A stretch of 52,733 nucleotides of DNA, from NCBI GenBank assembly GCA_029834535.1, contig JAQMWT010000419.1:1-52733 (forward strand), in the 5' to 3' direction. The notes beneath the pieces are model-generated. The model worked only from the letters and a program-made list of their open reading frames with translations. It was not told where the DNA came from and made no database searches. Positions 3,066 to 38,918 of the stretch are shown one piece after another. The DNA is from Chrysophaeum taylorii. Taxonomy: Eukaryota; Sar; Pelagophyceae; Pelagomonadales; Pelagomonadaceae. The position numbers and the translations under genes are program-made. The stretch's first letter is position 1. Every line of letters begins with the position of its first letter.

Positions 3066-3132
3066 CTGTGCAATGGGAGCTAAAAACAAAAACGAGGGGC
3101 TTCCGTGGGATGGGGTTGTTGATGTGCTTGCA

Positions 3133-3384
3133 TCAGACATTCGGCGGTACACACGCTGACTTGGAATTATCTTGATTGGCATGAGACAGAGTATCGGGAG
3201 GGGTATGTGAGACGGTGGGTGTGGCCGTTCGAGGCGGTGAAGGGGGTGGAATAGATGGTGGTATTAAGAAAAGCGGCGGAATGGAACTAGAATCAGTCAA
3301 GGTGCGAGTAGGCATAGGAGCAGAAAAGGCAGTGTTAGTGGTGGTGGGTTTGGGTTGGTGTTGTTGGGTGTTTTTTGGAGTCAT
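3133..3384 (-). pseudogene. Proline-rich segment of copia gag region, copy 1
   Basis: An 83-aa minus-strand frame rich in Pro, Thr and Ser, ending NQDNSKSACVPPNV. Copy 2 has the same C-terminus at 44456-44656. It probably belongs to the gag tail or the gag-pol linker. No domain is recognised. Confidence 0.4.
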
Positions 3385-3494
3385 TGGAAGTGCTGCGCTG
3401 TTGAGAAGAACGGCGATGGTGGGTAGCGCGTTGTCGTGGAATAGCTAGGAACGTTGAAACGTGCTAGGAACGTTGAAGCGTGCGGCAGTCCCTC

Positions 3495-4250
3495 TTAAAT
3501 TGATCCTTGCAGCCGCCAAAATGACATTGGGTAGTGCGTCGGAATCGAGTAGAGCCAGGTTGTTCGGAAAGGGGAGCGTCTAGGGTAGGTCAGTTGGAAG
3601 GGTCGGAAGTCGTGGCTGACGACGCGGCGGATAGCGCGGCGGAAGTGGTTGTGCATGCCATCTAAATTGATTGGTGTTGAACTTCTCAAGGGTACAACCA
3701 CAGTTGTCGGTACGAAACGCGAGACGATAAAACAAAGCCAGTAAGGCTTGAAGCACGATGCACGTAGTCAAATGCGAGGACACACTCGAGGGTACGTCGG
3801 ATCAGGTACAATGCCGAGCAACTTGAACTCCGGTGATAGGTACAATGCCGAGCAACTTGTATACTCCGACGATGAACTTGTTGAGGAAGTTCGCTACGCG
3901 ATCCCCACGGCCCATGTAGACATCAGTAATGCGCTTGTAAAGTCGCGTGAAGTTCATGTCGCGGTTGTCATGTTGTTCGCGTGAAGTTCATGTCGCGGTT
4001 TTCATGGATATCAACGTTGTTGCTTGACGCGAAATTCTTCTTCAGAGCAGCGAGATGCTTCTGCAGAGCGAGATGCTGAGATGCTAGTCCAAGGATTGTT
4101 GGTCGAGATAATGTGATCGCCGGTAGTGATGATCATGTTCGCGACGACGTGTCCATTGGTGGAAAAAATGTCGCTCACCGCTGAAGGCATCAAGGTTTTG
4201 CGAAAGCTTGCTATCTTTAATTTCGATCGAGGACATGGTAGACGAAACGA
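3495..4250 (-). pseudogene. Copia gag-like region, copy 1
   Basis: On the minus strand a start near 4236 gives MSSIEIKDSKLSQNLDAFSG followed by a tryptophan. A KL-x-x-F/L-x-G-x-x-x-x-x-W pattern is common at the start of copia gag. Further on, other frames give pieces such as YMGRGDRVANFLNKF (clearer in copy 2, about 45170-45310) and NLDGMHNHFRRAIRRVV. Indels break the frame several times in both copies. The gag assignment rests on position and general look only. Confidence 0.45.
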
Positions 4251-4337
4251 ACCGAACACGTAGCAATGAACTGAAGCCGAGGAGGTGTCGCCACGAAGTC
4301 AAGCAGAGGCTCGATCGTGAACGAGCACCTGGTGCCA

Positions 4338-4412
4338 TGTGAGAACTGAAATGGAGATGTGAGAACTATAATGGGGACGTGGTGCAGGGGTAAGTGTCAT
4401 AGCTTCCTCACA
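4338..4412 (-). repeat. 5' LTR of copia copy 1, with adjoining primer-binding site
   Basis: Direct repeat of 80-153. On the minus strand its last bases CA are followed at once by TGGCACCAGG (4337 downward), which has the position and TGG start expected of a tRNA primer-binding site. The repeat ends 75 bp before the ATG of the plus-strand gene at 4488, so it probably sits in that gene's promoter or 5' leader. Confidence 0.75.
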
Positions 4413-4487
4413 AAAGCTCTCGAAAACGAAAAAAAAATTGAAATCATACCTATTTTCTGGTCCGTTGAAAAAAAAAAAGGTTTTAAT

Positions 4488-5510
4488 ATGATAGCCGCCG
4501 ACGCGCTCGAGCTGGAGGCAAATCTGCGACAGATGGTTATTCATATTCGGCAGAAGGAGGTCGAGCTGTTCACGGATCAGTTCGGGGTCCTCGCGTCGAT
4601 CTCGACGTTTATGGCATCATTAGGGTTCGGGGCGTTGACGATGTCGACGAATTTCCTAGAGCGCGGGCACCGAGAAAACGAATACTGCTCTGACCTCGTC
4701 GGGTGCACGTCGCGCGGGAAGCTGTTCAACAACGAGGTCGCGATCACGATTTACTTTGGGTTAACGGCATTTTCTATTTTTTGCAATTTCGTCGTCGTCT
4801 TCATCGCCGTGTATTGCGGCATTTTTGGGCCCGAGCTCGCAATCCGCGGCGAAGTTTTCGAGCAAGAGCGCGCTATTAGGGGCATGTATGCCGAACGGCG
4901 GACGGCCCTGCGTTTTTTTTGGGTCGCGTGCGCGTCTATTGTCGTCGCCGGCGGCGCGCTCGGCTGGCTGAAGTATCCTACGAAATCCGCCGCGGCGATG
5001 ACGGCGGTATTTTCGCTCCTTCTCGGCGGCAGCTCGTACTACGTCACCCACCTGACCCCTTTGTTTAGTTTCGAAGAGGTCAAACAGCGGCAGCCCACGC
5101 GCGAATTTTACGTCGCGTCCAAGGCGGCGCCGCTCGACGTCAACGGCATACCTAGGCACGGCATCGTCTCCGATAGCGTATTGCGGATCTTCGATATGGC
5201 CGGCACCCTCGTCGACACCATTCATCTCCTCGACACCTCCCTCGATCTCAACGCGGACGGTATGTGCTTCTGGCTCGTCGTCGGTCAGAACAAGCACCGC
5301 CTCGCCGGAGCCGATTTCGACGACACGCAGCACTGGATACGCGCCATCGTCGCCAACATACGCCACGACTACGCCAACTTCTCCGACGACGACGACGGTG
5401 ACGACGACGAATCCAAGGTTGTTGTTCCGCGTCGTCGGCGTGCCGGCGCCAGACGGACTACCGTCGTCGACCTCCGCGGCATTCTCCCCGGGTCCGCTCG
5501 CCGCGGCTGA
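4488..5510 (+). CDS. Four-TM membrane protein with PH-like C-terminal domain
   Basis: 340 aa from the ATG at 4488. An upstream in-frame ATG at 4359 lies inside the retroelement LTR and is unlikely to be native. Hydrophobic segments fall at about residues 32-52, 84-110, 140-161 and 167-190. A charged loop (ELAIRGEVFEQERAIRG) separates TM2 and TM3. Residues about 203-293 end in NKHRLAGADFDDTQHWIRAI, which resembles the last strand and helix of a PH domain. An acidic run (FSDDDDGDDDE) and a basic tail follow. The four-helix layout and the TM2-loop-TM3 pattern recall Orai calcium channels, but that is inference from layout. A copia LTR ends 75 bp upstream. The next gene is convergent, with stops 47 bp apart. 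Confidence 0.75.
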   Translation: MIAADALELEANLRQMVIHIRQKEVELFTDQFGVLASISTFMASLGFGALTMSTNFLERGHRENEYCSDLVGCTSRGKLFNNEVAITIYFGLTAFSIFCNFVVVFIAVYCGIFGPELAIRGEVFEQERAIRGMYAERRTALRFFWVACASIVVAGGALGWLKYPTKSAAAMTAVFSLLLGGSSYYVTHLTPLFSFEEVKQRQPTREFYVASKAAPLDVNGIPRHGIVSDSVLRIFDMAGTLVDTIHLLDTSLDLNADGMCFWLVVGQNKHRLAGADFDDTQHWIRAIVANIRHDYANFSDDDDGDDDESKVVVPRRRRAGARRTTVVDLRGILPGSARRG

Positions 5511-5518
5511 TTATATTA

Positions 5519-5524
5519 GTATTT

Positions 5525-5557
<33 letters not shown>

Positions 5558-5565
5558 CTAGCAGA
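5519..5565. repeat. (GTC)n microsatellite between convergent genes
   Basis: About 13 GTC triplets fill nearly all the space between the stops at 5510 and 5558, and run into the last codons of the LRR gene. Confidence 0.9.
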
Positions 5566-6076
5566 AGAGGCAGGCGGAGGCAGCATCGTCTACTAGATGA
5601 TCCTCGCGCGCGCGGTGAACATCATCGTCATCGTCGAGACTGAGGATTTCGAGGGACGGGAGGGAGGGGAGAACGACGAGGAGCGCCCGAAGACCTTGTT
5701 TCCCAAGATTATTGTAGGCCAAGTCGAGGAACTTTAGCTTGGAGAGCCCTGAGAGCTTTGGCGCGAGAAGTCGCGCACCGCTGGGGCCGAGGCCGTTGTG
5801 CCGCAGGTTGAGCGACACGAGCGAACCAGGAAGGTCGAGCGCAGCAACGCTGACCTTGTTGTACTCGAGATTGAGCGATGTCAATGTCGCCGGGACCGAC
5901 ACGGCGCTCGTGAGCTTGTTATAGCCAAGGTCGACCTCCTCTAACTTGAGAAGGTGATCGAGTCGAATCTCCGTCAGACCGTTAGCGGCGAGAGACAACT
6001 TTTTGAGCGATTCGGGCAGCGCGTCCGCGGACGGCAAATAATTGCTGTAGTCCAGGTTGAGCGAGGATGAGTCCAT
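5558..6076 (-). CDS. Leucine-rich repeat protein
   Basis: 172 aa, starting MDSSSLNLDYSNYLP. At least five repeats of L-x-x-L-x-L-x-x-N-x-L type run from about residue 23 to 148 (LKKLSLAANGL, LEEVDLGYNKL, LTSLNLEYNKV, LVSLNLRHNGL, LKFLDLAYNNL). The last two have the longer spacing of ribonuclease-inhibitor-like repeats. There is no signal peptide or membrane segment, so the protein is probably cytosolic and binds other proteins; the partner is unknown. A longer upstream frame exists, but this start fits the first repeat and leaves a 60-bp gap to the divergent glycosyltransferase start at 6137. The tail (DDDDDVHRARED... ACLFC) is not repeat-like. Confidence 0.8.
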   Translation of the reverse strand: MDSSSLNLDYSNYLPSADALPESLKKLSLAANGLTEIRLDHLLKLEEVDLGYNKLTSAVSVPATLTSLNLEYNKVSVAALDLPGSLVSLNLRHNGLGPSGARLLAPKLSGLSKLKFLDLAYNNLGKQGLRALLVVLPSLPSLEILSLDDDDDVHRAREDHLVDDAASACLFC

Positions 6077-17409: not shown

Positions 17410-17752
17410 TGTGGCGTAAGGAGAATTTAGGCCTACCTGGCGCGCCTTCGAATCCTGGCTCGCCGCTCGCGTCCGTGCCCTTGGTGGAGTCACTGGACGA
17501 GGATGGCCGTTCTCTCGCCACACGACCACAAACAACTTCCGTGCCTCTGGTCCTCCTCACAACTTGAGGATCGGCTGTTGCTTTATGTGATTGTGATATT
17601 ATCGAAACGCAAGAAATCAGGGTGACACATGTCACGGAAAAGGAAGATGATGTCATAGAGAACACTGACATCATCAGAACGGAGTAGGGTGCCCCTGATA
17701 AGGGGGGCCCTAGAAGAGGGGTAAGCCTTAGGAGATGGGAGTTGCCGCCACA
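17410..17752 (-). repeat. 3' LTR of the gypsy-type element (343 bp)
   Basis: Bounded by TGTGGCG at 17410 and CGCCACA ending at 17752, the short inverted ends typical of LTRs. Bases 17410-17590 repeat directly at 27354-27540. Bases 17592-17752 repeat in inverted form at 28621-28791. Outside it lies the CTGGT target duplication. Confidence 0.9.
17622..17675. promoter_or_regulatory. Inverted repeats inside the LTR
   Basis: Two dyads lie close together: GTGACA/TGTCAC (17622-17635) and GATGATGTCA/TGACATCATC (17646-17675, 10-nt loop). Both are kept in the other LTR part (about 28700-28765). TGACATCA is one CpG-to-CpA change from a CRE/ATF site. They may be transcription factor sites or RNA structure; this is inference. 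Confidence 0.45.
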
Positions 17753-17792: not shown

Positions 17793-18080
17793 CTAGCGCG
17801 AGGAGCGCGGCTTCGCCTTACGAGCATCTCGTAAACGAATCTTCTGGTAAACGCGGGCGATGACCGGTTCAGGAACTCGACCACTGCGAGAAGTAAACTT
17901 GGGGATCAACACATCAATCTCGTGCGGAGCGAAATCCGTGACACAAGGAGTTGTGTTGGAGGAAATTCGGGACTTGTCGGTGAAACTTCGACCTTCAACG
18001 TCCTTGAATTCGGGCTTGAGCTTGCGGTGCGAAAGGTGAGAGGTCGGCTTGAAATAAGCGACATCATCGTTCGGACCCAA
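17793..18080 (-). pseudogene. C-terminal tail of gypsy-type integrase/pol
   Basis: A 95-aa frame (MGPNDDVAYFKPTSHLSHRK ... RKAKPRSSR) between the integrase and the 3' LTR. It is basic and ends 40 bp before the LTR, so it is the probable pol C-terminus. No chromodomain signature is clear. A frame change near 18243 separates it from the integrase. Confidence 0.5.
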
Positions 18081-18242
18081 ATCAGAATAGAAATGTAGGG
18101 CAACACGATCATTTTGGTAATCGCAAGGCTCGTAAACTTCAGCAACATAAATCTTCTTGCGCCAATCGGAGCGCTTCCGGTCGGGAATCCGGAAAACAAC
18201 AAACTTACCGTGCTGATAATCATCACGGAAGGTTTCTTCGGG

Positions 18243-19354
18243 TTAGCGGATGGTTTGATCAACGATCGGAGGTACCATCACAGGCGTGATCTGACTAACA
18301 TGAACACGTCGTTTTTCGGGCGGAGAGTCGAGAGACTCAATCCTATAGGTGACCGAGGAAAGGCGTTCCTTGATAACAAACGGTCCTCGCCATTCCGGTC
18401 GAAGTTTGTTCTGAAGGAAGGGAATGTAGAGCAAAACGTGCGATCCTTCCTTGTATTCAACATCAACATGATCGGCATTGTAAGCCAATCGTTGTTTCTT
18501 CAAAGCTTTATCACGAGCCTCGCGGAAGATCTTCGTATAATACTTCAATCGTTCACGAGTTTCGGCAACTGCATCAGAGCGAGTCTTCGGCAATAATCGT
18601 GTACCGAAATCTATAAGCGTGTAGTCAGTCGGTAGCATCGGCTGACGGTTCAGGCGCAGCATAAAGGGAGAAATCTGCGTGCCTGGAATAAACTTGCGGT
18701 TATAACAAATCGCAACATAATGAGCAAAGTCAGGCCAATCCGTAATGTTCCAGCCCTGAAGGCAAGCACGGAGGAAGGCCTTGATAAATCGGTTGACACG
18801 CTCAGCCGGGTTCGACTGGGCATGATAAGGAATCGTAGTTTGGTATCGTGTGTTAAAGAGATGGCAAAACTCGCGCATCAACTTGTTCACGAACCCTTTA
18901 CCGTTGTCGGTACGAATCATCTGTGGGGCAAGTAGCCCTTGAGGAGGATGTGAATGACAAAAGACTCGAGGACATACTCAGCAGTCTTATCGTTCAAAAC
19001 ATCCAGAATCAAGAAATGCGAGAACGGATCAAAAAACACTAGAAGATACGTCTCGGGACCAGCGCTGGGCAAGGGTCCAAATAAATCCATGCAAAGAACA
19101 GCACCATCACCATCGTAGACGGGCTGTTGCAAGAGTCCAGCTCGTTTCGGCTCAGGCGTACGAGCTTTCTGGCAAACTAAACATTCAGCAATAAAGACTC
19201 CAACTTCGTTCGACATGTGGGGCCACCAAAATCGTTCTTGGATAGCCTGGACAGTACTGCGACGTCCCATATGACCACCGTTAACCGGGGTGTCATGGTA
19301 GAGTCGAATAATGCGCTTGCGCAACGTAGCAGGGGCAACAATCATCGGGTGCAA
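18243..19354 (-). pseudogene. Gypsy-type integrase (zinc-binding and DDE core), frameshifted
   Basis: Two minus-strand frames meet near 18920. The first (19354-18917) has the H2C2 zinc-binding region (LYHDTPVNGGHMG ... WWPHM ... CLVCQKA) and the first catalytic Asp in LCMDLFGPLP. The second (18920-18243) has RTDNGKGFVN with the second Asp, PYHAQSNPAERVNRF with the Glu, and a C-terminal LRPEWRGPFVI segment typical of the post-core SH3-like part. The split at 18920 is a frameshift between the two Asp residues. All three DDE residues remain. Integrase inserts the cDNA copy into the genome. Confidence 0.9.
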
Positions 19355-19500
19355 ATCAGCAGAAATGCGCTAAAGAACGTCTTTAACGACTTCGTATCGT
19401 TCGTTCGCTCGGGAACGTCGCGGCGTGCAAATCAGCAGAAATGCGCTAAAGAACGTCTTTAACGACTTCGTATCGTTCGTTCGCTCGGGAACGTCGCGGC
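19349..19500. repeat. 76-bp tandem duplication in pol
   Basis: GTGCAAATCAGCAGAAATGC starts at 19349 and again 76 bp later at 19425, and the whole unit repeats essentially exactly. As 76 is not a multiple of three it breaks the frame between RNase H and integrase. The near-perfect identity of the two units says it is recent. Confidence 0.9.
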
Positions 19501-19673
19501 GTCTGACCTTGGGCCATTCGGTAGCGAATATCCTCGCAAGTAGCATCAGATTCTTGCTCACGTGCGATTTCGGCGAGCGTCATATTATCGGGTATCTTAT
19601 CGATATAATCTTTGTAAGCGGCTGCGTCCTTGAAGACCTGTGGCTCATCGCGCGCACGGTTCTTCCGACGTTG

Positions 19674-19919
19674 TCACGTAGCGTGAGACGTAGCCAATTT
19701 CATCGGATCCTTTTCAGGATCTTCATCTTCGTCTTCCGGCAGTTCGGTCGTAATAAACGACATTATGAAGTGGCAGCCGGAGACGGGAAATCCTCGGTCA
19801 TCAACAGGTCGGGGAAGCTCTTGGAACACTAAATACGCGTGGTTCAAAGGTTCTCCAAACTCGTCAGTCTCGATGACATGATCAATCGGGTTGCGGGAGA
19901 GACAGTCAGGGATACTCAT
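19674..19919 (-). pseudogene. Linker between RNase H and integrase
   Basis: An 81-aa frame starting MSIPDCLSRNP. The D-x-LSR motif follows RNase H in gypsy-type pol (A-D-x-LSR). An acidic run (ELPEDEDEDPEKD) follows. The frame is cut off from its neighbours by indels. Confidence 0.7.
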
Positions 19920-19991
19920 TTCTGGTGACTTTCACGGCTTGTAACCAAGTTCAGGGTCAAAATTGGCGAGGCGCATCGCCCAACGAGCAAG

Positions 19992-20564
19992 CTACCCAGA
20001 CGAGGGCGTCGCCTTACGTAAAAACGTCAAATTTCGGTGATCGGCCTCCAAAACAGGCCGGTGCCCTTCGATGTAGGCTCGAAAGTGCTCTAGAGAAAGT
20101 ATAACTGCCAGCAGCTCTAACCGACGGGGCTCGTAATTGCGCATCTCCTTCGGCACAGCTCGGCTCCAATATTCAATCACTCGTTCTTCTCGAGTCACTC
20201 TTCCGGCATCGTCCTTGACTTCGAAAATCTGGAAGAGATATGCTCCAAGTCCATCCTTGGAAGCATCGGATCGGATCTGAAAAGGCAGATCATAATCAGG
20301 GTGGTAGCCTCCTCGGGAATCAACCAAAGCTTCAATAATCGTATCCCAAGCTTTCTGACATTCGGGCGTCCACTCGAACTTTACACCTTCGAGGCTTAAT
20401 CGTCTCAGCGGCTCCACGATCTTCGAGTAGCCCTTCACATATCGCCGGCAGTAATTACTCGTGCCGATGAAAGAGCGTATCTGGGTCTTCGGGGAAGTAT
20501 TCGGTAAAGTACCTGGAATCGGCATCTTCTCCAGTGCTTCCAGCGTCTTCGTATTCGGCTTCAA
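19992..20564 (-). pseudogene. Gypsy-type RNase H with RT connection
   Basis: A 190-aa frame. It begins with the end of the RT (IRSFIGTSNYCRRYVKGYSK, the LG-x-x-N-Y-Y-R-R-F region, then FEWTPECQKAWD). RNase H follows: FQIRSDASKDGLGAYLF (first Asp), YEPRRLELLAVILSLEHFR (Glu) and LEADHRNLTFL (Asp/His). Catalytic positions look intact. RNase H degrades the RNA strand during reverse transcription. It joins the RT frame (20561-20941) with a frame change. Confidence 0.9.
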
Positions 20565-21286
20565 GCTTCTGGGGTCGATATGTGTCCCAGAAATTCGATA
20601 TCATCCTTGAGAAGGTGGAACTTCGCGGTTCGACCGCTGTACCCTCTCTGTGCCAAATGACACATCACTTCGATCAAAACTTGTAAATGTCGATGAAGAT
20701 CGTCGGATCCCATCATAATATCGTCAACAAACGCAACCAAGTCTTGATACATCCATTTCGAAAGGTCGCTCGCCATTTGCTTGCAGAAAAGAGCTCCGGC
20801 CGTCTTCACACCTAGAGGTAATCGCAAGAAACTATGAGCGCCAAGTGGGCTAACCATCGTGACAGCGTCTTGCGCTGCCGGATCCAAACGAAGGTTGTGG
20901 TATCCCCATCTAATATCAATGCATGTCCGCCATCGTCTCATGGCGAGAAAATCTAAAGCATCATCTTGTCAAATGTTCGGCCAACTGTCATTAACCAATT
21001 GATCGTTGAGCTGACGTAAGTCAACTGCAGCACGGAACGCGTTTGACGTTCCAATCTCAGCTCCTTTCTTCGGAAGCATCAACACAGGAAAGCCCCAAGG
21101 TGAGTTGGCCGGACGAATGACTCCATCTCGGCACCACTCGCTGATCTGCTTGCGGAGACAATTGAGCTTCGCAGGCGTCAATCGGTAGAGCGTCATCTTA
21201 ATCGGTCGCGGATTCGCGTCTTTGAATCGTAGAGACACAGAGGAGGCGAGTTCACAGGTCTCATAATCGGGTCGAAAAAGGCCCAA
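20561..21286 (-). pseudogene. Gypsy-type reverse transcriptase, broken frame
   Basis: Two frames. 21286-20969 has LTPAKLNCLRKQISEWCRDG, VIRPANSPWGFPVLMLPKK and FRAAVDLRQLND, the fingers region. 20941-20561 has CIDIRWGYHNLRL, SFLRLPLGVKTAGALFCKQM and the catalytic FVDDI, then FLGHI. A frame break lies between them near 20950. The order and motifs are those of Ty3/gypsy RT; F-V-D-D replaces the more usual Y-(L/I/V)-D-D. Confidence 0.9.
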
Positions 21287-21868
21287 GAATATTGCACACA
21301 GTGACGGAGCATCAGTTTCGCATCGTCATCTAAGTGCGGATTGTCAGGAATTCCCAGCTCCTGAACAACCTTGTCAACTTCTTCCTTCGTAGGAATTTGA
21401 ACTTTCATTGCTTCGTTATCCTTGACATGCTCGGGAGTTTGCGGTAGCGGTGCACCCTCAGCATCGCGCGGCGCATCTTTCCATGGCACATCAGACTTTT
21501 TCTCATATTTCAGGGTGGCTTTTGTTGATCCTCTCGCCTTTGACACGAACACTCGGCTCACTCTTAATCTTCGGTTCCCGATCTCGCTCAGGATCTGGCG
21601 GAACGTCCAAATTTGGTTGTCGGGGGGGGGCAGAAGAAGCATGAGACGCCCCGGATCATCTGTTGCAGGCGGAATCAACGGTACCTCTGGAGGTTTCCAT
21701 TTGGTGCGATCTTGGAGATCATAAGTCGATACATAGCTTACGACACGCGTGCGCGTGTTTAACAGCGGAACTTGTACGTGACGAAGGGTGGTTTCATCAA
21801 TTTGCAAATAGTAATCAAACGGTCGGTCTGCAGGACTCAACGCCGAGCTTCGCCGCTCAAGTGAAAAT
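21193..21868 (-). pseudogene. Connecting region between methyltransferase and RT
   Basis: After the methyltransferase frame stops at 21837, the sequence continues in another frame from about 21868 (SPADRPFDYYLQIDETTLRH ... KVQIPTKEEVDKVVQELGIP ... YSWAFFDP) and shifts again into the RT near 21270. The last part (a helix, then a 'Y-x-x-x-F' step into RT) fits the usual lead-in to gypsy RT. No other domain is recognised. Confidence 0.6.
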
Positions 21869-24662
21869 CCTTGGTCACAGAGTTGTGCAGATCGAGTACT
21901 AATGAGGTCATCGTGTCTGGCGGCACGACGGACGCCAAGTGTTTCAACGAGGTCGTCCTGGAGAAGCCGGCCCAATCAAAATCAAGAGGCATCGTCAGCA
22001 ACTCCGAAGTCATTTTCAGATTCAGAGATCTGTAATCGGAACGGTGCGGTGCTACGCGAAGCGGGACACGCGCAACGGTATAAGCTGCGTCTGTCGCGGC
22101 TCGTGATGATCCTAAATTGTTCATCTGAAGTAAACGTCGTTCGTCGGCGTAGCCAAGCGCAGCGGCGAACTCTTGTTGCATATTTTTGCAAGTCTTTGGA
22201 ACTGCGCGCAAATGGAGCGGGTGGCTGGAAACCAACAACCGCACGCGACAGCTCATCAAACTGGGCGTTATATCGTAAAAATTGACGACGTACGCGTAAG
22301 GGTGCAAACGTGCAACGTAAGAAATAATCGAGGCATCCTGCTCTATCAGCCACATGAAGAAACCAGCCATCTTGCATAATTTCATCGTCCAGTGGGTGGC
22401 GGTGACTCCCTTCCCAACATCCCTGGAAGTCAAGTTGCACAGAGCGGAGTGTACGCAGGGTGGCGACGCGATACACATCGACGACGACCATTCCGCGTAA
22501 GGTAAATAAGTTTCGATCAACCGTAAGGTAGTAAGATAGCGACCACAAAGCATGTGCTGCACCACAGGAATATTCGGAAAGTTCTTGAGGTGGATCTTGT
22601 TGGCGGTGTCCGACGCATCGAATGCTAGCACGACTCGGAACGACGTCCCACACATTTCGTTGGCTCGTTGGAGACCTAAAGTGCTGCCTCCGGCTCCTCT
22701 GAACAGCATCACCACCTTGCGATAAGTGATTGGAAGCCATTGAACCTTTTCGTATCGGCGGCGGATCTCCGCTTCGGTGATCTCGTGGCATTTCTTTTCA
22801 TCTTCTTCCGACCTTCGAGCGAAATCGTCGCTGCCTTCAGGTCGTTTGAGGGAGGACGCGTCCAAAGTAGCAGCTGGAGCATCCTTCTGCGCCGTGCTCA
22901 GGAACATCGGCGGGGGAGACGCGTCGCAATGCATCAAATGACTAGCGACAGAAACGGTGAAAGAATGGTTCCCCTTGTCGTATCCTTCTTCACATTCTTT
23001 CGTAAGTTCGTTGATCGTAGAGACGTTCAACTCGTCTTCATACCTAACGATACCGCCAATCGCAAGGACTTCGCCTTGAGTGACGACCGTCGGCACTTCT
23101 TCCGTGGCAGTAACCGCAACACGAGCAGCGGACCGGTCGTGCTCTTCGCAAGAAGAACACATTCCTTCGACAACTCCCAGCTGCTCATTTTCAGCAAACG
23201 TAGCGACGAAAACCTGTCCCAAATCCATAGGCTTCGACAAAATAACCGGTAGATTGTAAGTTCGACCGGGCTCGATTTGAAGCGTGCGCGCAGCGTAAGC
23301 CACTACTTCTCGCGCGGCTTCTCCCGGAGCTGGGGAGAATTTGGTCGTAGCATGTCCCCGCGTAGCCAAGGGTACCGTTCGTTCCGGCGGCGGGCTGCGG
23401 AGATCTTTAATCGTGCTCAAACGCGCGTAAACTTGAGTCTTGACTAGGTCGAGACTCTTCCGAAAGGCATCGTGTTGAAGATAGTAAATCGGTACGGTTA
23501 TCGGGTCTCGGTCGTAAGTAGATCGAAAGGTCACGATGGGTGCATCGACGTCTCGTTCATCCTTGACTTTAATCTTCTGGCGCCCGTAGACGACTTGGAT
23601 TCGATAAAAACAGATCCGATCGTGGGGGTAGTCCACGACGGCTCCTAAAACTCGTATATCGCGCCCTCCCAACAGGAACAGGTAGTTCGTAGTATCGACC
23701 ACAATAGCGACAATGGGGGCAGCGATGACACGATGGATGGTCGTCGAGAATTTCGGTCCGTCACGATTCCTGTAGATGTGACAGGCCATAAACGTAAGAG
23801 TACCCGTATCCAAACAACTCAGGGTAACCAAATCATCTTGGATCGTCTTGCCGTCTCGCGGCGTCGACGCAGTATGAGCACATTGGGCTCTGACTCGCTC
23901 ATCTCCGGGGTTGGGCATCGATACCGCGGCTTGAGCTCTCGTATCATCTGTTGTTGGCGTCCTCGCCATAACGCTCGCGGCAGCCTCTTTATCTGGCGGC
24001 TTCCGCTCTTCCTCCGTGACAATCTCGGAGGGAATCAGTGCTGGTAGGGGATCCTGATCTTCGTGGTTCTTGGAAGCAAAGGACCTCTCCCATAACTCAT
24101 CCATTTCGTCATTCCAGAATGTCTCCAAAGATTCGTTCGTCCTCGGTTGATCATCACAGTCGGTGCCGATCGGTTGCGTGTCAGCTGCGGCTTCGAGTCC
24201 GTAGCTGAGAGGTGTTTCTGGTGGCTTCTTTAGCAAGAAGCTCCGCGTTCTCGTCCACCAATTCTGCAGGTTCCACGTCGGCTCGTCTTCGTCCCCATCG
24301 AGAATGCTGCTAATCTTCTTCTTAAGTCTATCCTTTTCTTCCGGCGGCGTGTCCGTGGCTCGATCCGTCGTAACCGAAACCGTTTCGGGGGGGTCCGCAG
24401 GAAAAGATGGCGTCGTCGTCCTCGACGTCAACTCTATCGTAAGAGCGTCGTCTGCATCACTCGCTACGGTCATCGTCTCGTCCGTCGAATGATCACACGA
24501 GCTATGACTGCAGAAACCCTTGTTTGGCTCACAGCCAGTTCGGTCGCCAAAGGTCGTCCCTGGAGGGTCCAGAGGTAAGCCAATAGCGTCGAGGGCTTCC
24601 TCGTCAAAAACAAACGGTGCGTCGTCCGTGGACGACTCGTCAAGTAACGTTATCGCGGACAC
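21837..24662 (-). CDS. Pol segment: aspartic protease plus C5-cytosine DNA methyltransferase
   Basis: One open frame of 941 aa from the first Met after an in-frame UGA at 24717. Residues 1-270 are acidic and disordered. The retropepsin-like part has LSCLDTGTLTF (DTG at 285-287) and FLLGGRDIRVLGAVVDY. A beta-rich region follows (IEPGRTYNLPV, GVVEG, ARVAVTATEEVPTVV), as behind many gypsy proteases. Residues about 649-930 are a C5 methyltransferase. Motif I is VVMLFRGAGGSTLGL, with AFDASDTANKIHLKNFP after it (motif II). Motif IV is IASPPC with catalytic Cys 736. WLIEQ stands at motif VI (usually ENV), CRVRLLVSS at VIII, LKMTSELLTMPLDFDW at IX and SVVPP at X. The target-recognition region is short. 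Family knowledge: such enzymes methylate cytosine C5. Activity and capture from a host gene are inference. Confidence 0.85.
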   Translation of the reverse strand: MSAITLLDESSTDDAPFVFDEEALDAIGLPLDPPGTTFGDRTGCEPNKGFCSHSSCDHSTDETMTVASDADDALTIELTSRTTTPSFPADPPETVSVTTDRATDTPPEEKDRLKKKISSILDGDEDEPTWNLQNWWTRTRSFLLKKPPETPLSYGLEAAADTQPIGTDCDDQPRTNESLETFWNDEMDELWERSFASKNHEDQDPLPALIPSEIVTEEERKPPDKEAAASVMARTPTTDDTRAQAAVSMPNPGDERVRAQCAHTASTPRDGKTIQDDLVTLSCLDTGTLTFMACHIYRNRDGPKFSTTIHRVIAAPIVAIVVDTTNYLFLLGGRDIRVLGAVVDYPHDRICFYRIQVVYGRQKIKVKDERDVDAPIVTFRSTYDRDPITVPIYYLQHDAFRKSLDLVKTQVYARLSTIKDLRSPPPERTVPLATRGHATTKFSPAPGEAAREVVAYAARTLQIEPGRTYNLPVILSKPMDLGQVFVATFAENEQLGVVEGMCSSCEEHDRSAARVAVTATEEVPTVVTQGEVLAIGGIVRYEDELNVSTINELTKECEEGYDKGNHSFTVSVASHLMHCDASPPPMFLSTAQKDAPAATLDASSLKRPEGSDDFARRSEEDEKKCHEITEAEIRRRYEKVQWLPITYRKVVMLFRGAGGSTLGLQRANEMCGTSFRVVLAFDASDTANKIHLKNFPNIPVVQHMLCGRYLTTLRLIETYLPYAEWSSSMCIASPPCVHSALCNLTSRDVGKGVTATHWTMKLCKMAGFFMWLIEQDASIISYVARLHPYAYVVNFYDITPSLMSCRVRLLVSSHPLHLRAVPKTCKNMQQEFAAALGYADERRLLQMNNLGSSRAATDAAYTVARVPLRVAPHRSDYRSLNLKMTSELLTMPLDFDWAGFSRTTSLKHLASVVPPDTMTSLVLDLHNSVTKDFHLSGEARR

Positions 24663-24716
24663 TGGTTCACAAGGTGTAGCTTCTTCATCTTCCGAGTCTG
24701 AATCGTCTTCCCAATA

Positions 24717-25484: not shown

Positions 25485-27029
25485 TCAATCCTCGCGCGTG
25501 CTCTCGAACCACTTTTTCGGATTGTCTTCTAGACGCAATGCTTCATATTTCGTCGTTTTATCTTTCAGCCCCGAGGCGAGCGCTCGTCCTCCGCGTCCAG
25601 ACGGTGGCTTCTGCGGCTTCCCGCCCGACGGGTTCGGCGAATTTCGGCTGTTCCGCTCCGCCATTGCGGTTGCGAAATCGTTTTCGAGCCGCGTAATCGA
25701 TGACGACGTCGACGTAAACGCATTATACGTCGTCGGGTGCCCGCTGCGCATGGTTCGCACGCGGGATTTCAATTCGCTGGATTCCAGTCCACGTATCAAG
25801 TAAGAGATGATCACCACGTCGTCGTTGAGATCTCGTTTGGCCACAGAGCAGTGCGCCATGGCCTCTTTCTGAAATTTGATACAATAAGTATATGCGCGCG
25901 GCGTTCCCCAGATCATTTCGGAACGGTCGCTTGGGTCGTGCCTTGCAGTTTTCGTAACAATTCCTCTGCCGTCATCGGCAATGGGCAACTCTCTCGGAAA
26001 TATCTCAAAATCGTGAGGCAGTACTTCTCGATCAGTCGTCGTAGTCGTCGTACCACTGAACCGTACTCCTCGTCGTCGTCGATATCCCGTCGTAAATTAA
26101 AAGACGCTGGGTGATCGAGAGATCTTTACACACGTCTTCGTACTTCTTCAAGTGTTCTCGGGAAATCGGTGCGACTGTGTCGCGCAGGCTCGCGGGCAGC
26201 AGGCACCGCAGCTTCTCCATGCTAAATTGGTCTTCGGCTAGCGTACTCATCACCGCGGCCGCATCAAAATCGAACTGGCCCTGATCGCGTCCATCAAGGA
26301 CCAGTTTAAAGGGTTTCGGTCTTTAATCCGGGCACCGATCCTTGTTGCGATCGTGTTTGGCTAACGCGCTGGCGAACCGATCTGTGAAGGCCATCAGGAA
26401 CTTTTGGTTGTCGATTCTTCCGTCGTCGCGCGCCTCCCCCTTTTCTTCATAATCGTCGTCTTCATAGCGCGGCTTCCTAGCTTTCGCGCGTGATCGTGTA
26501 GTTGGCGGCTCTTCCTCGGATCGGGACCCCGGGCTGGTCGCTCGCCTCGATCGACTCGGCGTACGCAACTCGTCCCTTTCTCGGGTCAACGAGCCTACTT
26601 GATCTCGGAGGTCGTCTGCTCGAGCGTTGGCCTTCGGCACTTGCTCTCGTAATTCTTCTGCCTCCTTCCGCTGTAGCCGCTCCTTTCGATCGCTTTCTTC
26701 CGCTATTTGTTGTAAAAGTCGCTCCTGCGAACGTTCGTTTTCTTCCCGTAACGCACGTAAATGGGCCTCGTAGTAGAACTCATTCACATTCTCGTTACGT
26801 CCGGGGTTCGTGCACGCGTTGACGGGGGCTGTCGGTCGTCCTCCCGGCGGTCTCTCCGCCGGTTCGCCGTTGTTGTAGTAGTCTAGCTCTTCTTCCTCGT
26901 TGTCAACTTCGGTGTCGTGCTCTTCGTCATCATCATCATCGTCGTCATTCCTCTCGCTCGTCTCATCCTCTGACGGCTTGGCGGTTCGTCGTGTCGCGTC
27001 TCCTCGTCGGCAGCATCATCGTCTTCCAT
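25485..27029 (-). pseudogene. Gag region of the gypsy-type element, broken
   Basis: A start at 27029 (MEDDDAADEETRHDEP) leads after a frame change to an acidic N-terminus, then a long coiled coil (26787-26323: EAHLRALREENERSQERLLQ, ELREQVPKANARADDLRDQV). The capsid-like part follows in 26253-26032 and 25988-25485, with FQKEAMAHCS, VVIISYLIRGLESSELKSRV and YNAFTSTSSSITRLENDF. LIRGL-x-x-x-ELK is typical of the end of gypsy gag capsids. No CCHC zinc knuckle is visible; the tail is basic and Gly/Pro-rich. At least three frame breaks exist. Confidence 0.7.
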
Positions 27030-27353: not shown

Positions 27354-27540
27354 TGTGGCGTTAGGAGAATTTTAGGGGCTACCTGGCGTGCCTTCGAATC
27401 CTGGCTCGCCGCTCGCGTCCGTACCCTTGATGGAGTCACTGGACGAGGATGGCCGTTCTCTCGCCACACAACCACAAAGAACTTCCGTGCCTGGTCCTCC
27501 TCACAACTTGAGGATCGGCTGTTGCTTTATGATTTTGATG
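27354..27540 (-). repeat. 5' LTR of the gypsy-type element, inner part
   Basis: Direct repeat of 17410-17590 with about ten differences. It begins TGTGGCGTTAGGAGAA and stops matching at GCTTTATGATTTTGAT. The rest of the LTR is missing here and is found inverted at 28621-28791. At least two differences from the 3' LTR are CpG transitions (GCGC/GCGT and CGACC/CAACC). Confidence 0.9.
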
Positions 27541-28620: not shown

Positions 28621-28791
28621 TGTGGCGGGAACTCCTCCAGCCTCCTAAGGCTTACCCCTCTTCAAGGGCCCCCCTTATCAGGGGCACCTACGTACCTACT
28701 CCGTTCTGATGATGTCAGTTTTCTTTATGACATCATCTTGATTTTCCGTGACATGTGTCACCCTGAATTCTGCGTTTCGATAATATCACAA
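28621..28791 (+). repeat. 5' LTR of the gypsy-type element, outer part, inverted
   Basis: Reverse complement of 17592-17752 with several differences and a small insertion (TACGTAC) near 28690. It starts TGTGGCGGGAACTCC and is preceded by ACCAG, the complement of the left target duplication. It ends at GATAATATCACAA, where the 3' LTR continues into the part found at 27354-27540. Confidence 0.9.
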
Positions 28792-32378: not shown

Positions 32379-34679
32379 CTACTCCATCATTCGGCTGCCC
32401 GTACGGACGACCGCGTCGACCGTCTCGCGCATCAGGCCATCGAGGAGCCTGTCGGCTATGTTGACGCAGATCTCGAGCTGACGGTCGCTCAGGCGGGACC
32501 TGTTTCTGGGAGCCGCCGGGACGGCGTCTAGGTGATGGTAGGACGAAGCGTCCTGCTGGGACCGGACGGCCGCAAAAGCAGCGGCCTTGAGGAGGTCGAG
32601 GGTCGAGGCCTTTTTGTCCCCGGGGAGCCGGAAGGTGCGAAGGACGATGGTCGCGAGCCTCGAACGCCGGTGGCACGCGTCCCGGACGTGGGAAACGATC
32701 GCGTCGAAGATCGCGTGCCGATGGATCTGCGCCTCCTCGGGCGTACATCCCTCGGGATTTCCTGCCTCAAAGCCGCCGATATGCTGCTCGAGGTCGATGA
32801 AGAGATCTAAAAGCCTATCCTCGTCCTCGGGCGTTTCCAACGCCCGCGCAAACCTCTTCCCCGTTTCCCCCGTCGACAGCCACCTCGCGTACCGCTCCAC
32901 CGTCTCGCCCCAGTCCACCGGCTGGCAGGGGTCCACCACGTACACGACCTCCGTCTGCTGCTGCTGCTGCTGCTGCTGCTCGTGTCGCGCCCGCTGGGTG
33001 TGCTCGAGAGACTCTTCGAGCAGCCGCCGCAGCAGCCGGTCCGTGATCGCCTCGGCCCGCGCCATCTGATGCGGCTCCTCGCCGTCGTCCTCGGGAAGCA
33101 ACTCGTGCCGCGGCAGTCGGGCCAACAGCTCGAACTCGTCCTCTTCGACCTCCGAGTGCGTCGGCTTTTGCCGCGGGATGCTGTCAGCCACGTCCGCGCG
33201 TTCCACTTCCTCGTCATCCAACGTCTGCCGCGGTATGCTCTCGGGAATATCTGCAGACTCGACGAGGTCGTACGCTCCCGGAAAAAACGACGCCGGCACC
33301 GTCTCCACGACGTCGTAGCTCGCGAGCAAATTCCCCGGATGTGCCGACGGGAACGCGTCTTCCGCGCTTACCGAGGAGTCGCCGGGCTGCGCTCCTACCC
33401 CGTCGCACCTTGCCAACCGATCGTCTCCTAACGAAGACGACGACGCTTCGCCTGCCAACGGGTTCTCGTGTACTTCGTGATACTTTGCCAACACGGGCGC
33501 CTCCGCCTCTTCGACCGCGTCGTACCTTGCCAACGGGTCCATCACTGGCGTCTCCTCGTGGTAGCCTGCCAACGGGTCGATCCCCTCTTCGGCGAGTCCT
33601 GCCAATGCGGGCGCCTGCGCCTCTTCGACGGCATCATAGCTTGCCAACGGGTCCTCGAACGCTGCTGCTGGAGCCTCCTCCTCCTCCTCCTCCTCCTCCT
33701 CCTCATGGGAGCCTGCCAACGGGTCGATCCCCTCTTCGGCGAGTCCTGCCAATGCGGACGCCTGCGCCTCTTCGACGGCATCATAGCTTGCCAACGGGTC
33801 CTCGAACGCTGCTGCTGGAGCCTCCTCCTCCTCCTCCTCCTCATGGGAGCCTGCCAACGGGTCACCGGACACCTCGTCGTGCTCTGCCAACGGTTCGTCG
33901 TCGGACGCCTGCGCCTCCTCGACGGCGTCATAGCTTGCCAACGCGGCGACCTCCTTGTCGCAGCCTGCCAACGGGTCGACCTGGACCACCATATCGGAGC
34001 CTGCCAACACGGGCGCCTGCGCATTTTCGACCGCATCGTAGCTTTCCATTCTGTCGACCTCGGGCGACCACCACTGGCCTCCTGCCAACGCGTCGACCCC
34101 CACATTGGAGCCTGCCAACACGGGCGCCTGCGCCTTTTCGACCGCATCGTAGCCTTCCATTCTGTCGACCTCGGGCGACCACCACTGGCCTCCTGGCAAC
34201 GCGTCGACCCCCACATTGGAGCCTGCCAACACCGGCGCCTGCGCATTTTCGACCGCATCGTAGCCTTCCATTCTGTCGACCTCGGGCGACCACCACTGGC
34301 CTCCTGCCAACGCATCGACTTCGGGTACCTCCTCCTGGAAGGGCTCCGCGTCGTCGCCTGCCAACGTGTCGACTGAAACGTAGCCTGCCTTGGGTTTTTC
34401 GTCGGGCGGCTCCGCCGGCTCGACGGCGTCGTAGCCTGCTAACATGTCGGGGGGGCGCGGTTCGTCGTCATCGACAAGCAGCTTCTCTTCGAGCGCGACA
34501 AATGCCACGCGGCGGAGTTGGCGCGCGTAGAAGAGCCTTCGGAGCGCACTCGCGACGCGCGTCTTCGCCGCCACCTCGCGCGCCACGAGTCGCGCCCGCA
34601 GCGCCGCCAGGTCGCGCGGTCCGAGCTGCTGATCTTTCGCTGCGGGCACCACCTCCGAAGCAAACGAATGGTCCGAAAG

Positions 34680-34713
<34 letters not shown>

Positions 34714-37700
34714 GGTTGGGAGCGCGCTATCGCCGCGGGTTTCATCGGAGCGAGATCGGTGCCGTCGTCCGAGGCGAAGGAATGCTCGTCGATGTGTTCG
34801 AGCTGGTCAGCCGGCGCCGCTAACCACTCCTCGACGCCCGGCCTATCCGCCGTCTCGAGATAATCGTAGCTCTCGATCGACGGCTTCGTCGAAGTTCCCT
34901 TGCTCGCCGTCAGCCGCGACCGAAGAGCGCGGATCCGCGCCTCGGTCGCCGCGAGCTCGGCTTCGAGCTCTGCCTCGACGGACCGCAACCGGTCCCGTTC
35001 CGCCGTCGCCTCCGCCACGTTCTCCAGCCGCGAAGCCTCGCGCTCCTTCTCCCGCACCGCGCTCCGCAGCACCGACACTCGCGCTCGATGCGCCTCGGCC
35101 GACGCCTCCAACGCTCGCAGCTCGCCGTCTTCTGATTCGAACGCCTCCGAACCATAGGTCTCCTCCTCCTTCGCCGTCTCAGACTCCCGCGGGGCTTCCG
35201 GCTCTTCGAAGGTCTCGGACGCCCGCGGTGGTGCTTCGAACGTCTCGGACCCGTACGCTTCTCTCGTCTCGGACCCATCCTCTTCGATGCTCTCAGCTAC
35301 GCTCTCGATAGCACACACCTGCGGCTCGACGACCTCCGACGCGCTGCTCCGTGGTATCTCCTCGATCGCGTCTACGCTGTCATCGCCCGGGATCTCCCGT
35401 CGAGTGGTGATGCTGTCATCGCCCGAGATCTCCTGCCGAGAAGTGCTCGCCGGGCTGTCGACGACACGAATCTCTTCTTCTTCTAAACCCTCGACGACGA
35501 CGACCACCGCGCTGCTCTCTGACACGACGCGAACAAATCGCGCCGGTAGTGCGAGCTCGAAATCGCCGTCGTCGTACTCGACGTCGACCGCCGCGCCGCC
35601 CTCGCGCACGCGACTGATGCGGCCGGGGTACCACTCGTCGCCGCGCCCGAACTGTGCCTCGACCTTCGCCCCCACCAGCACGCCCGGGATCCCCTCTTTC
35701 GAGGCCAAGGCCTCGGTCTCGACGACCACGGGCTCTCCTCCGTGGGTTTTCATTTTCTCGACGGACGCAGACTCGAACCCATACTCGCCGTAGGATTCCG
35801 ACACCTCCTCGGCCTCCTCGGCCTCCTCGGCCTCCTCGGCCTCCTCGGCCTCCTCGGCCTCCTCGGCTTCCTCGGCCTCCTCGGCCTCCTCGGCCTCCTC
35901 GGCTTCCTCGGCCTCCTCGGCCTCCTCGTCTCTGTAGGATGATGTGTTGTGCTCGATCGACGCCGCCTCGGACCAAGTATCCTCGGCAATCATATCCTCG
36001 GTTTTTTCGTCGGTCGCGTAGGACGTGTCGCGCTCCTTCGAGTCGCCATCCTCATCCTCGACGGGCTTGACGACCACCTCATCCCCGTAGGATGTTTCGC
36101 GCTCGATATCGATGGCCTCGGATACTACCTCGTCGTCCTCGACAACTCCTGGCTCCTCGTATCCGCAGGGCTCATCGATCGACGCCGACTCGAACCCCGA
36201 CTCGCCGTAGGTATCCTCGGCGGCGAATTCCTCGATCGTTTGGCTCGGCGCGTCTTCGATGATAAGGGGCGACCCTTCTTCAAGCGCCGGCGAAGACTCC
36301 TCGACGCCAGGCGACGCGGCGGGCGACGCGCCGTCGTCTTCGTCGAGCGTTCGCGAGGCATGCTTGGCCATTTCCTGGACGGCGAGCTCGCACGCGGCTT
36401 GTTGCGCCGCGAGCTCGAGCTCAATCGCGTGCGCGGCCGCCTCGCTGTCGCGCACCTCGAGCGCGCGCGCCGTCTCGCGCCGCGCTCTCTCGAGCTCGAC
36501 GCGCCTTTCGAGCTCGGCGATCTCGAGCCGCGACTCTGTCAATGCTTCGTGGAGCTCGACCTCGGCGAGGAGCTGGCGCTGGAGCGAGCCGGGGCTCGGC
36601 AGGCGCCGAGCCTCGATCGGCGCTCTCGCCTCGCCGCGCGAATCTTTCTCCGCCGCCCGAGCTTCCTCCTCTCGTTCTTCCGGGCTTTTTTGCTCTGCCT
36701 CCACGTCCTTCTCCAACTCGACATCATCATCGTCGTCGTCGGAATGGTCGTCACGACCTCCATCTGCTGCCTCCAATTCATTCTCGTCGTCGTCGTCGGA
36801 TTGGTCGCAACATCCATCGCCTTGCTCCGAGTCATTTTCCGACTCGTCGTCGTCGGACGGGCTCGACTCTTCGTCGTCGACCCGGGGTTGCTCGCGAGCG
36901 AGTTGCCGCGCGACGGCATCGATGATCGAGAGCTCGTCGCGCCGCGAGTGCTCGACGCGCAAGACCAGAGGCTGGACGTCTTGGTGGCTCTCGAAGAAAA
37001 ACGGTTCTGTCTGCTGGGCGACGCTCGCGCGCGCCGGCGATCGATGGTGCCGGGGCTCGAACTGGAGAGGCGAACACGTCTCGAAAAGATCGTCGGGTCG
37101 ATTATTATCCTCGCGGCGGGGCGGCATAATCTCGCGGCGCGGCAACTCCTCATCATCAAAGCGCGCGGAAGTCGGCTTGACGATGATATGATTGTCTTCT
37201 GGCAACTCCTCGTCATCAAAGCGCTCGGGAGTGGCCTCCTCGAACAGCCCTTGATGATGATCATCATCAAGAAGATCAGCTTCGCGGCGCGGGGTCTCCT
37301 CGTCATCATCATCATCATCATCAAAGCGCGCGGAAGTAGGCTCCTCCTCCTCAAAAACAAGTCGTTGATGATCAAGATCGAGATTGTTGTCTTCGCAACA
37401 ACCTGGCTCAACCGCGTCGTCACCATCATCATCATCATCATCATCATCAAAGCGCGCGGAAGTAGCCTCCTCCTCCTCAAAAAGACGTTGATGATCAAGA
37501 TCGAGATTGTTGTCTTCGCAACAACCTGGCTCAACCGCGTCGTCACCATCATCATCATCATCATCATCATCAAAGCGCGCGGAAGTAGGCTCCTCGAACA
37601 GCCCTTGATGACGATAATGAATATCTTCGCAAAAACCTGGCTCAACATAATCATCGGCAAAGCGCGCGGTCTGCTGGTGAATCGAGAGGGCCGGCGCGCG

Positions 37701-38918
37701 GTGGAGGCGAGTGACCGCGCGCGCCTCGTCGTGCGTCGAAAACGAAGAGTCGTCGTTCTCGTCGACGTGCGTGTCCTTGAGCGACGAGACGTCTTCGTCG
37801 GAGACGTCGTCGTTTATCGGGACGAAGAAACGACGTCGCGTCTCCGCTCTCTCGGCGAGGTCGGAGACCTTCGCGTCGATGCCGCAGAGCGCGTCCCGGA
37901 GACGTCGGATTCGAGCTTGGTTGTCAGGCACTTTCTTTTCGACAAGATCCGCTTCATCCTCGCACAGCAGCAGGTCGAGAGCGGATTCGACCGGTTTTGT
38001 CGCGGTCGCCTGCGGGGGCGCGACCTCCCTGGTCACCTCGGCCGGGGACGGGGGTCTCTTCTTCTTAGGGCGGGGCCTCCGCAGGGATCGACTGACGGCT
38101 CTGCGCGCGCGCGCCTCGACTTTGTCGAGTTGCCGGCGCTTGCGCTCGGCGCTCCGGGCTCTCGCGCGTCTCGACTCGGCCGCGGCCGCGCGCCGCTCGC
38201 GCCGTTGCTTTTCCATGTACTCTCGCCCCGTGGCGCGCCGCGCGACGCGGTGTTGGTGGTGTTGTTGTTGTTCTGTGGCGGCGGCTTTGGGCGGGGGTGC
38301 TGGTTCTGGTTCCACCGGCCTTTGGCGGCGAGTACGACAAAAGTCGTCCTCGTACTCCTCCTCCTCTTCGGATTCGGATTCGTTCCCCCCGCGGAGCGGC
38401 GGGAGGGGCGGCAAATCTTCGGGCTCGCGGCGGGGGGGGTGGCTGGGGGGCGGCGGCGGCGGCGGCGGGGGGGGCTCCGGCCGCGCGGGAGGCGGCTGCC
38501 GTTTCTGCTTGCGCTCGGCGGCCGCGACGGTCCTCGCGTTTGCGATCCGGACCCGAGCGCGCTGCTCGAGAAGCCGCGACCGAAGCTCTCGCTCCTCGTT
38601 CTCCGCCGCGATCCGCCGAGACCGGTCCCGCGCCACAGCCTGGCCCGCGGCTCTTCCACGCTCCGCGCGGCGTCTCTGGATTTCAGCGGGACTCACGCTC
38701 CGCGCCTTGGGCACCACCACCACCTCCTCCTTTATCATCACCGGCGCCCGAGCGCGCCGGTTCGCCGCCGAACTGCTCAGGCTCCGCAGGGCCCGCTGCC
38801 GCGCGACACGCTGGGCAGTCGTCGCCTCCTCGGCGTACTTCGACCTGACGGCCGGCCCTCGGAATCCGCCGCCGCCGCCGCCGGCGCCGGCGCCGGCGCC
38901 GCCTCGCATCATCATCAT
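32379..38918 (-). CDS. Very large repeat-rich coiled-coil protein with a Tudor-like module
   Basis: 2179 aa in one exon. The N-terminus (1-330) is basic with coiled coils, a Pro run and a Gly run. Residues about 419-533 hold two to three copies of a DDDDDDGDDAVEPGCCED unit. A region of mixed-charge coiled coil follows, then an EEA repeat run (about 996-1040). Residues about 1076-1134 look like a Tudor/Agenet fold (GAKVEAQFGRGDEWYPGRIS, VDVEYDDGDFE). Three 39-aa repeats (GGQWWSPEVDRMEGYDAVE...) lie at about 1533-1643 inside a wider set of DPLA-x-YDAVEEAQAP repeats (1493-1813). A Gln run (about 1980) precedes a helical C-terminal domain (2006-2179) ending SRMME. It might be a centrosomal or cytoskeletal scaffold, but I do not recognise the family. 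It starts 54 bp from the divergent MARS gene. Confidence 0.75.
33996..34316. repeat. Three 117-bp tandem repeats within the large gene
   Basis: Nearly identical units that encode the 39-aa repeat with GGQWWSPEVDRMEGYDAVE. The period of 117 bp keeps the frame. High DNA identity suggests recent expansion or gene conversion. Confidence 0.85.
35796..35930. repeat. In-frame GCC-TCC-TCG repeat (EEA repeats)
   Basis: A 9-bp unit repeated about 14 times encodes E-E-A on the minus strand. It lies next to the Tudor-like module and is likely to vary in length. Confidence 0.9.

Follow-up and report, generated by a model that had tools for sequence, protein, structure and literature searches.

The 52,733-nucleotide (nt) contig JAQMWT010000419.1, analysed here as a whole and referred to as the window (coordinates are window positions), carries on its minus strand a retrotransposon that belongs to a large Ty3/gypsy long terminal repeat (LTR) family, in which a C5-cytosine methyltransferase (MTase) lies between the protease region and the reverse transcriptase (RT) of the Pol polyprotein. 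An open reading frame (ORF) of 941 amino acids was confirmed at 21837-24662 (-), within a stop-to-stop frame of 959 amino acids (24716-21837), and includes, in the order in which the original prediction had read them, a DTG stretch, motif I (LFRGAGGSTLGL), the SPPC of motif IV (with Cys 736), the IEQ of motif VI, the CRVR of motif VIII, a motif-IX-like stretch and the VPP of motif X. Downstream of the ORF on the same strand, the gypsy RT, RNase H and DDE integrase that had been announced are matched by the Pfam models RVT_1, two RNase H models, Integrase_H2C2 and rve. The element extends beyond the ORF, from the 3' LTR at 17410 to half of a 5' LTR ending at 27533, and the window copy is a decayed member of its family: its alignment to an uninterrupted copy consists of 7 pieces, interspersed with stops and frame jumps, and 65 of 151 protease-region positions are missing.

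For the characterization of the domain, 21 copies were compared, namely 20 ten-kilobase stretches chosen from genome matches to the window protein, where the presence of the MTase is by selection, and the window copy itself; four of the 21 were left out of the domain alignment on account of stops. All 17 stop-free domains, when cut out, match PF00145 at an E-value limit of 1, with a best value of 3.3e-6, and have no match elsewhere in Pfam. The window domain, which is 91-95% identical to the other 16 members of this alignment (A1), reaches 22.7 bits through its motif I-II part alone. The PF00145 match by which the original prediction was to be judged thus stands for the isolated domain in every copy and not for the whole window ORF, which scores 18.5 bits, below the 22-bit cut-off. 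In addition, 16 PADLOC models match the domain, all of them named methylases or methyltransferases, while a PHROGs DNA methyltransferase gives 8.6e-7 and the NCBIfam model dcm E 0.0012 (18.6 bits against its own cut-off of 100.65). The best sequence matches of both domain ends are to DruM2 and Type II C5-cytosine methylases in PADLOC, with 6.4e-10 for DruM2, whose C-terminal part aligns in register (Table 1), and 8.9e-10 for a cytosine methylase over motifs I-IV. This similarity is at the level of motifs, and these are free-standing prokaryotic defence enzymes, whereas the family MTase is embedded in Pol. They also have longer target-recognition regions; in the window family only 69 residues separate motifs VIII and IX, in agreement with the short region that had been remarked upon. 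SPPC, IEQ, RVR and SVVPP are invariant in all 21 copies, so that the unusual IEQ is a fixed character of the family; in motif I, 4 of the 12 columns are variable. Since PF00145 matches 17 of 17 domains, PADLOC models match both ends, and none of four decoys (one reversed and three shuffled versions of the domain) matches any PADLOC model, a chance reading of the motifs is excluded, and the domain is, as judged from its sequence, a real and very divergent C5-MTase.

The genome holding the window measures 70.8 Mb in 697 contigs, and the MTase and the RT were searched for in it separately to avoid circularity. Among the matches listed, after merging, there are at least 175 RT places and at least 177 MTase places, and for 109 of the 175 listed RT places a listed MTase place lies on the same strand no more than 4.5 kb upstream. 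In smaller lists, an MTase lies upstream of 57 of 95 listed RT places, with a spacing of 634-664 nt in 50 of the 57, and 105 of 129 listed MTase matches, by row count, are without a stop. Some contig pairs, C25/C521 and C10/C297 among them, match at near-equal coordinates, and the counts may include allelic duplicates. Of the 66 listed RT places with no listed MTase, three were examined (L043-L045), and all three retain a C-terminal remnant of the MTase, so that they resemble broken copies and not an MTase-free lineage; an MTase-less sub-lineage may exist among the other 63. Further copies with the same protease-MTase-RT order, for which the original prediction had proposed a search, are therefore present, and one of them (L031) is uninterrupted. 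Its single uninterrupted frame of 3062 residues (P0001) runs from the gag side through the protease region, MTase, RT and RNase H to the integrase, with Pfam matches in the order PF00145 (18.4 bits, below cut-off), RVT_1, RNase H, Integrase_H2C2 and rve; a second genome place in the match list has an open frame of 3067 codons.

The order of RT, RNase H and integrase, with an RVT_1-type RT, RNase H and an rve integrase, is that of Ty3/gypsy elements, and the best solved-structure relative is Ty3 Gag-Pol (E 3.2e-68). A Pfam scan of L031 and of the window ORF found no protease and no gag match; both are named by position, the protease also by its DTG, the D of which is kept in 19 of 21 copies, and the N-terminal part of L031 has no CCHC knuckle. 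The protease region of L031 also shows, besides the DTG at residue 1024 of P0001, an almost invariant GVDGM stretch near 1049, and the Asp of either may be the catalytic one; the 65-position gap of the window copy falls in this protease region. The sole copy examined with both full LTRs (L029) has direct repeats of 339 and 338 nt (TGTGGCG...CGCCACA), identical at 321 of 336 aligned positions, and no target-site duplication was seen at the flanks of this one copy (GCTAT / AATGG). DIRS-like repeats, considered on the basis of an inverted pair in the window, were rejected, the pair being two halves of one LTR sequence. The closest pair among the 20 fetched stretches is 98.3% identical, which suggests that the family spread fairly recently.

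Ratios of nonsynonymous to synonymous change (dN/dS) were obtained pairwise over the 21 copies by an own method; post-insertion decay inflates the values, so that it is the comparison with RT and integrase that counts. The MTase has a value of 0.21 (half-sample range 0.17-0.24), next to 0.24 for RT, 0.30 for RNase H, 0.19 for the integrase and 0.18 for the integrase C-terminus; the protease region stands at 0.28, the linker between RNase H and integrase at 0.39, the N-terminal gag part at 0.47 and the pre-protease region at 0.61. The MTase is under purifying selection comparable to that on RT and integrase, and since it is kept about as well as the copying enzymes, the element probably uses it. 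The central claim of the original prediction, a C5-MTase built into a gypsy Pol between the DTG region and the RT, is therefore borne out as a family-wide and selected trait. The GC content of the MTase (0.519) lies within that found elsewhere (0.477-0.543), and its third-position value (GC3) of 0.587 exceeds those of the nine other segments (0.473-0.561); composition gives no strong sign of a recent capture.

Table 1. Features of the retrotransposon copy in the window and the basis of each assignment.
Feature	Positions	Strand	Basis
Open frame: pre-protease region, DTG, partly deleted protease region, linker, methyltransferase	21837..24716	-	sequence and alignment to uninterrupted copy
Predicted C5-cytosine methyltransferase domain, 304 aa in window copy	21846..22757	-	PF00145 22.7 bits, cut-off 22
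Motif I LFRGAGGSTLGL, S-adenosylmethionine (SAM) binding	22671..22706	-	sequence; 4/12 columns vary among 21 copies; L031 has LFSGAGGSTLGL
Motif IV SPPC, catalytic Cys (Cys 736 of 941-aa ORF)	22455..22466	-	invariant in 21/21 copies
Motif VI, IEQ in place of ENV	22338..22346	-	invariant in 21/21 copies
Motif VIII RVR	22239..22247	-	invariant in 21/21 copies
Motif IX-like stretch (RSLNL...DFDW)	21972..22031	-	P0002 residues 192-296 match DruM2 profile positions 222-320 of 336
Motif X remnant VPP (ASVVPP)	21918..21926	-	SVVPP invariant in 21/21 copies
Reverse transcriptase, broken frame	20564..21238	-	alignment to P0001 1942-2166; RVT_1 9.4e-13
RNase H and linker to integrase, broken frames	19425..20582	-	alignment to P0001 2160-2546; RT_RNaseH_2 7.1e-23
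Integrase (H2C2 zinc domain, rve core) and C-terminal extension, two frames	17799..19426	-	alignment to P0001 2521-3062; Integrase_H2C2 3.1e-19, rve 6.9e-5
Gag-side fragment	26434..26901	-	59% identical to P0001 75-228; gag by position, without profile match
3' LTR, whole (family LTR about 339 nt, TG...CA)	17410..17752	-	aligned to L029 LTR pair
Half of 5' LTR (LTR positions 162-339)	27354..27533	-	aligned to L029 LTR pair
LTR positions 0-158, opposite orientation, outside element; rearranged LTR half	28621..28787	+	alignment to L029 LTRs

The same genome harbors a second retrotransposon family with a C5-MTase. A genome search with PF00145 listed 57 places, from 123 scored of 474 candidates; none of these coincides with any of the 129 listed places of the gypsy family (family 1), and 54 of the 57 fall on places of a Ty1/copia family (family 2). 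Nine of the 57 were examined, and proved to be two host-like genes and seven places of family 2. The most fully examined family-2 copy (L041, G000:C96:61500-67500; L042, G000:C96:67401-70900) shows the order protease-like stretch, MTase, a region without assignment, integrase (rve 0.0041, below cut-off) and RVT_2 (2.9e-39). Its MTase scores better than that of family 1 (PF00145 32.6 bits) and has a dN/dS of 0.17 over seven copies. At least 136 family-2 MTase matches are listed, several of them pieces of one copy; of the first 64 of 153 listed RT matches of this family, 46 are preceded by an MTase place in the same orientation at a distance of 3.5-9 kb, the spacing being 3.85-4.35 kb in 33 of the 46 pairs, and 18 are without a listed one. 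Between MTase and integrase, residues 575-760 or so of the L041 frame (1597-6000) are conserved (dN/dS 0.23). This region bears an HxD and spaced G, H and R residues which by eye recall a TET/JBP dioxygenase, a likeness that is pure speculation; no Pfam match and no Tet_JBP match was found there, in a test in which the controls gave no match either. Of the two host-like genes, whose classes were read from motifs, one (L001) is DNMT2-like and the other (L002, contig C621 of G000) is DNMT5-like, with a frame of 2086 amino acids, a PF00145 score of 65.4 bits and a weak RING hint; the genome has this DNMT5-like gene even though no depletion of CpG is seen in the stretches analysed. The genome also gives 84 matches to Chloroa_b-bind, a light-harvesting protein model, which identifies the host as a photosynthetic eukaryote; the stramenopile affinity that the original prediction had supposed is plausible.

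One genome thus houses two LTR families, gypsy and copia, with different C5-MTases after the protease region, which is new. Family 2 resembles family 1 in that the MTase follows shortly after a protease-like stretch and is family-wide, and differs from it in its Ty1/copia order, with RVT_2 after the integrase, and in an MTase that is not detectably related (hhalign E 0.064, with 20 columns aligned out of register, from shallow alignments of close sequences, 17 in family 1 and 7 in family 2). Among 5.8 billion proteins, no relative of either MTase was found by a word-based search, which needs shared short words and similar length, and searches that need shared short words or peptide patterns found none for family 1 in viral contigs or prokaryote genomes and none for family 2 in viral contigs. 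It is an evenly balanced proposition that the two families independently took up two unrelated C5-MTases at an equivalent place of the polyprotein, both then kept by selection, as a case of convergent evolution. If so, such convergence would indicate that cytosine methylation (or 5-methylcytosine on RNA) has a general role, open to selection, in the particle stage of LTR elements of this host, possibly in response to a host defence against unmethylated complementary DNA (cDNA).

The published cases found are few, in dinoflagellates and a charophyte (PMC5890265). De Mendoza et al. (2018, PMC5890265) described C5-MTases in LINE and DIRS elements and in one gypsy Pol, so that family 1 extends a kind already published. 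Some known retrotransposon DNA methyltransferases (DNMTs) have been called Copia and DIRS, and orphan DNMTs have been described (PMC12344493); microalgal DNMTs have been surveyed (PMC9998398); and methylases of the Dam or Dcm type are stated to be present in gypsy and DIRS elements from groups that include stramenopiles, with an antiviral role suggested (PMC6338049). The closest published parallel, KnitGypsy-Dnmt3 of Klebsormidium nitens, also has a C5-MTase inside a gypsy-type Pol, in several copies and under purifying selection, with a published Ka/Ks below 0.2 next to the pairwise 0.21 of family 1 (PMC5890265). The KnitGypsy MTase is DNMT3-related, whereas that of family 1 has no relative in the searches made, and the element has a DIRS-like repeat structure where family 1 has direct LTRs of about 339 nt (one copy, L029). 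SymbioDIRS-Dnmt3 and SymbioLINE-Dnmt of Symbiodinium are likewise retrotransposon-borne C5-MTases of a photosynthetic protist, the former within the Pol ORF (PMC5890265); these elements are a DIRS element, with a tyrosine recombinase, and a LINE, whereas family 1 is an LTR element with a DDE integrase. A literature search whose coverage leaves out most subscription journals and bioRxiv preprints returned no published genome in which both a gypsy and a copia family have a C5-MTase.

The presence of MTases after the protease region in two LTR superfamilies of a compact, evidently photosynthetic genome makes this host one in which it could be asked whether the enzyme marks cDNA, RNA or chromatin. 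Host genomes often silence retrotransposons by cytosine methylation, and an element with its own cytosine methyltransferase would have turned the weapon of the host into a tool. The explanation that is favored, by somewhat more than even chances, is that a divergent C5-MTase was gained between the protease region and the RT before the sampled copies spread and was kept as a working Pol domain, most likely methylating the cDNA of the element itself. The architecture, the copy number, the invariance of the catalytic residues and the purifying selection are the part of this explanation that is directly observed. The MTase would be made at one molecule per RT and integrase and would be packaged in the particle together with them, where it could methylate cytosines of the cDNA around reverse transcription and integration. 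Methylated new copies might then look like already-marked host DNA; alternatively, methylation might shield the cDNA from nucleases or deaminases. A cDNA target is suggested by the position of the domain, by the selection on it and by the published activity of SymbioDIRS-Dnmt3, which methylates CG de novo when expressed in yeast; cDNA marking is also the hypothesis that has been discussed for known retrotransposon DNMTs (PMC5890265). Furthermore, the occurrence of a C5-MTase beside a protease-like stretch in a second LTR superfamily suggests a job tied to the LTR life cycle.

Several observations weigh against cDNA methylation by a working enzyme. Motif VI (IEQ) is atypical, and so is motif X, usually GNxVP, in which AS here replaces GN. 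No MTase was matched when the domain profile was searched against solved structures (PDB), and a single-sequence structure model of the domain was uninformative (mean predicted local distance difference test score 34.7). The linkers flanking the MTase have dN/dS values of 0.26 and 0.30, near that of the MTase, which indicates that most of Pol is constrained and not the MTase alone. KnitGypsy-Dnmt3 showed no activity in yeast, a result that its authors call inconclusive (PMC5890265). Finally, since lasting CpG methylation would decay CpG, the prediction fails at the level of the genome: family-1 copies show neither CpG depletion, with observed/expected values of 1.21-1.36 in 20 stretches (flanks included) vs 1.16-1.45 in host parts of the window, nor an excess of CpG transitions, with C/T differences at 15294 of 269362 CpG positions (5.7%) vs 7.6% for CpT, 5.7% for CpC and 4.8% for CpA, counted over 253 pairwise alignments that are not independent. 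The lack of decay suggests a transient mark, a non-CpG context, good repair or an RNA target. In the copia copy (L041 and L042), CpG observed/expected is lower (1.06 and 1.01, with TpG at 1.14), which may hint at decay in this single copy.

An RNA target is a possible, if clearly less probable, alternative, in which the MTase would methylate genomic RNA, primer tRNA or other RNA and thereby stabilize it or aid packaging or priming. It would fit the missing signature of methyl-DNA decay, and RNA methylation has been raised for SymbioLINE-Dnmt (PMC5890265). Of the two host-like MTases, only the DNMT2-like L001 aligns in register with the family-1 domain (hhalign E 3.2e-4, 132 columns), as against E 0.48 for the DNMT5-like L002; however, the alignment to L001 is weak, with a probability of 38.9, and depends on motifs general to C5-MTases, and a place beside RT and integrase suits DNA equally.

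It is rather unlikely that the domain has lost catalysis and is retained in Pol for a structural role or for binding nucleic acid or SAM. The atypical motifs VI and X, the confinement of the window Pfam match to motifs I-II, the nearly equal constraint on the linkers and the divergence of a domain for which the searches found no relatives would all agree with such a loss, but the catalytic Cys, the Glu of motif VI and the Arg residues of RxR are invariant in 21 of 21 copies, and a pure scaffold would not need them. Action in trans on host chromatin, by altering host silencing or methylation or by restricting rival elements or viruses, is more doubtful still. The large number of MTase places in the genome and a DNMT5-like host gene that could maintain marks speak for it, as does published speculation (PMC5890265 and PMC6338049); against it, neither the host stretches nor the family-1 copies examined are depleted in CpG, the copies lack the transition excess, and an enzyme embedded in Pol would be expected mostly inside particles. 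A lasting effect on CpG methylation is thus unsupported so far. That the motifs match by chance, or that a single copy received a one-off insertion, is a reading for which one could cite the whole-ORF PF00145 score below cut-off and the PDB profile search; it has a negligible probability and is rejected in view of the family-wide presence, the purifying selection, the invariant motifs, the PF00145 and PADLOC matches and the negative decoys.

The window copy shows further signs of local change. An exact 76-nt tandem duplication lies at 19349-19500, at the junction of RNase H and integrase, and the two LTR halves, about 1.1 kb apart in opposite orientations, mark a local rearrangement at the 5' end of the element. 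Outside the element, an open frame of 2179 amino acids at 32379-38918 (-) has no Pfam match at E 0.001, and the window also carries eukaryotic genes.

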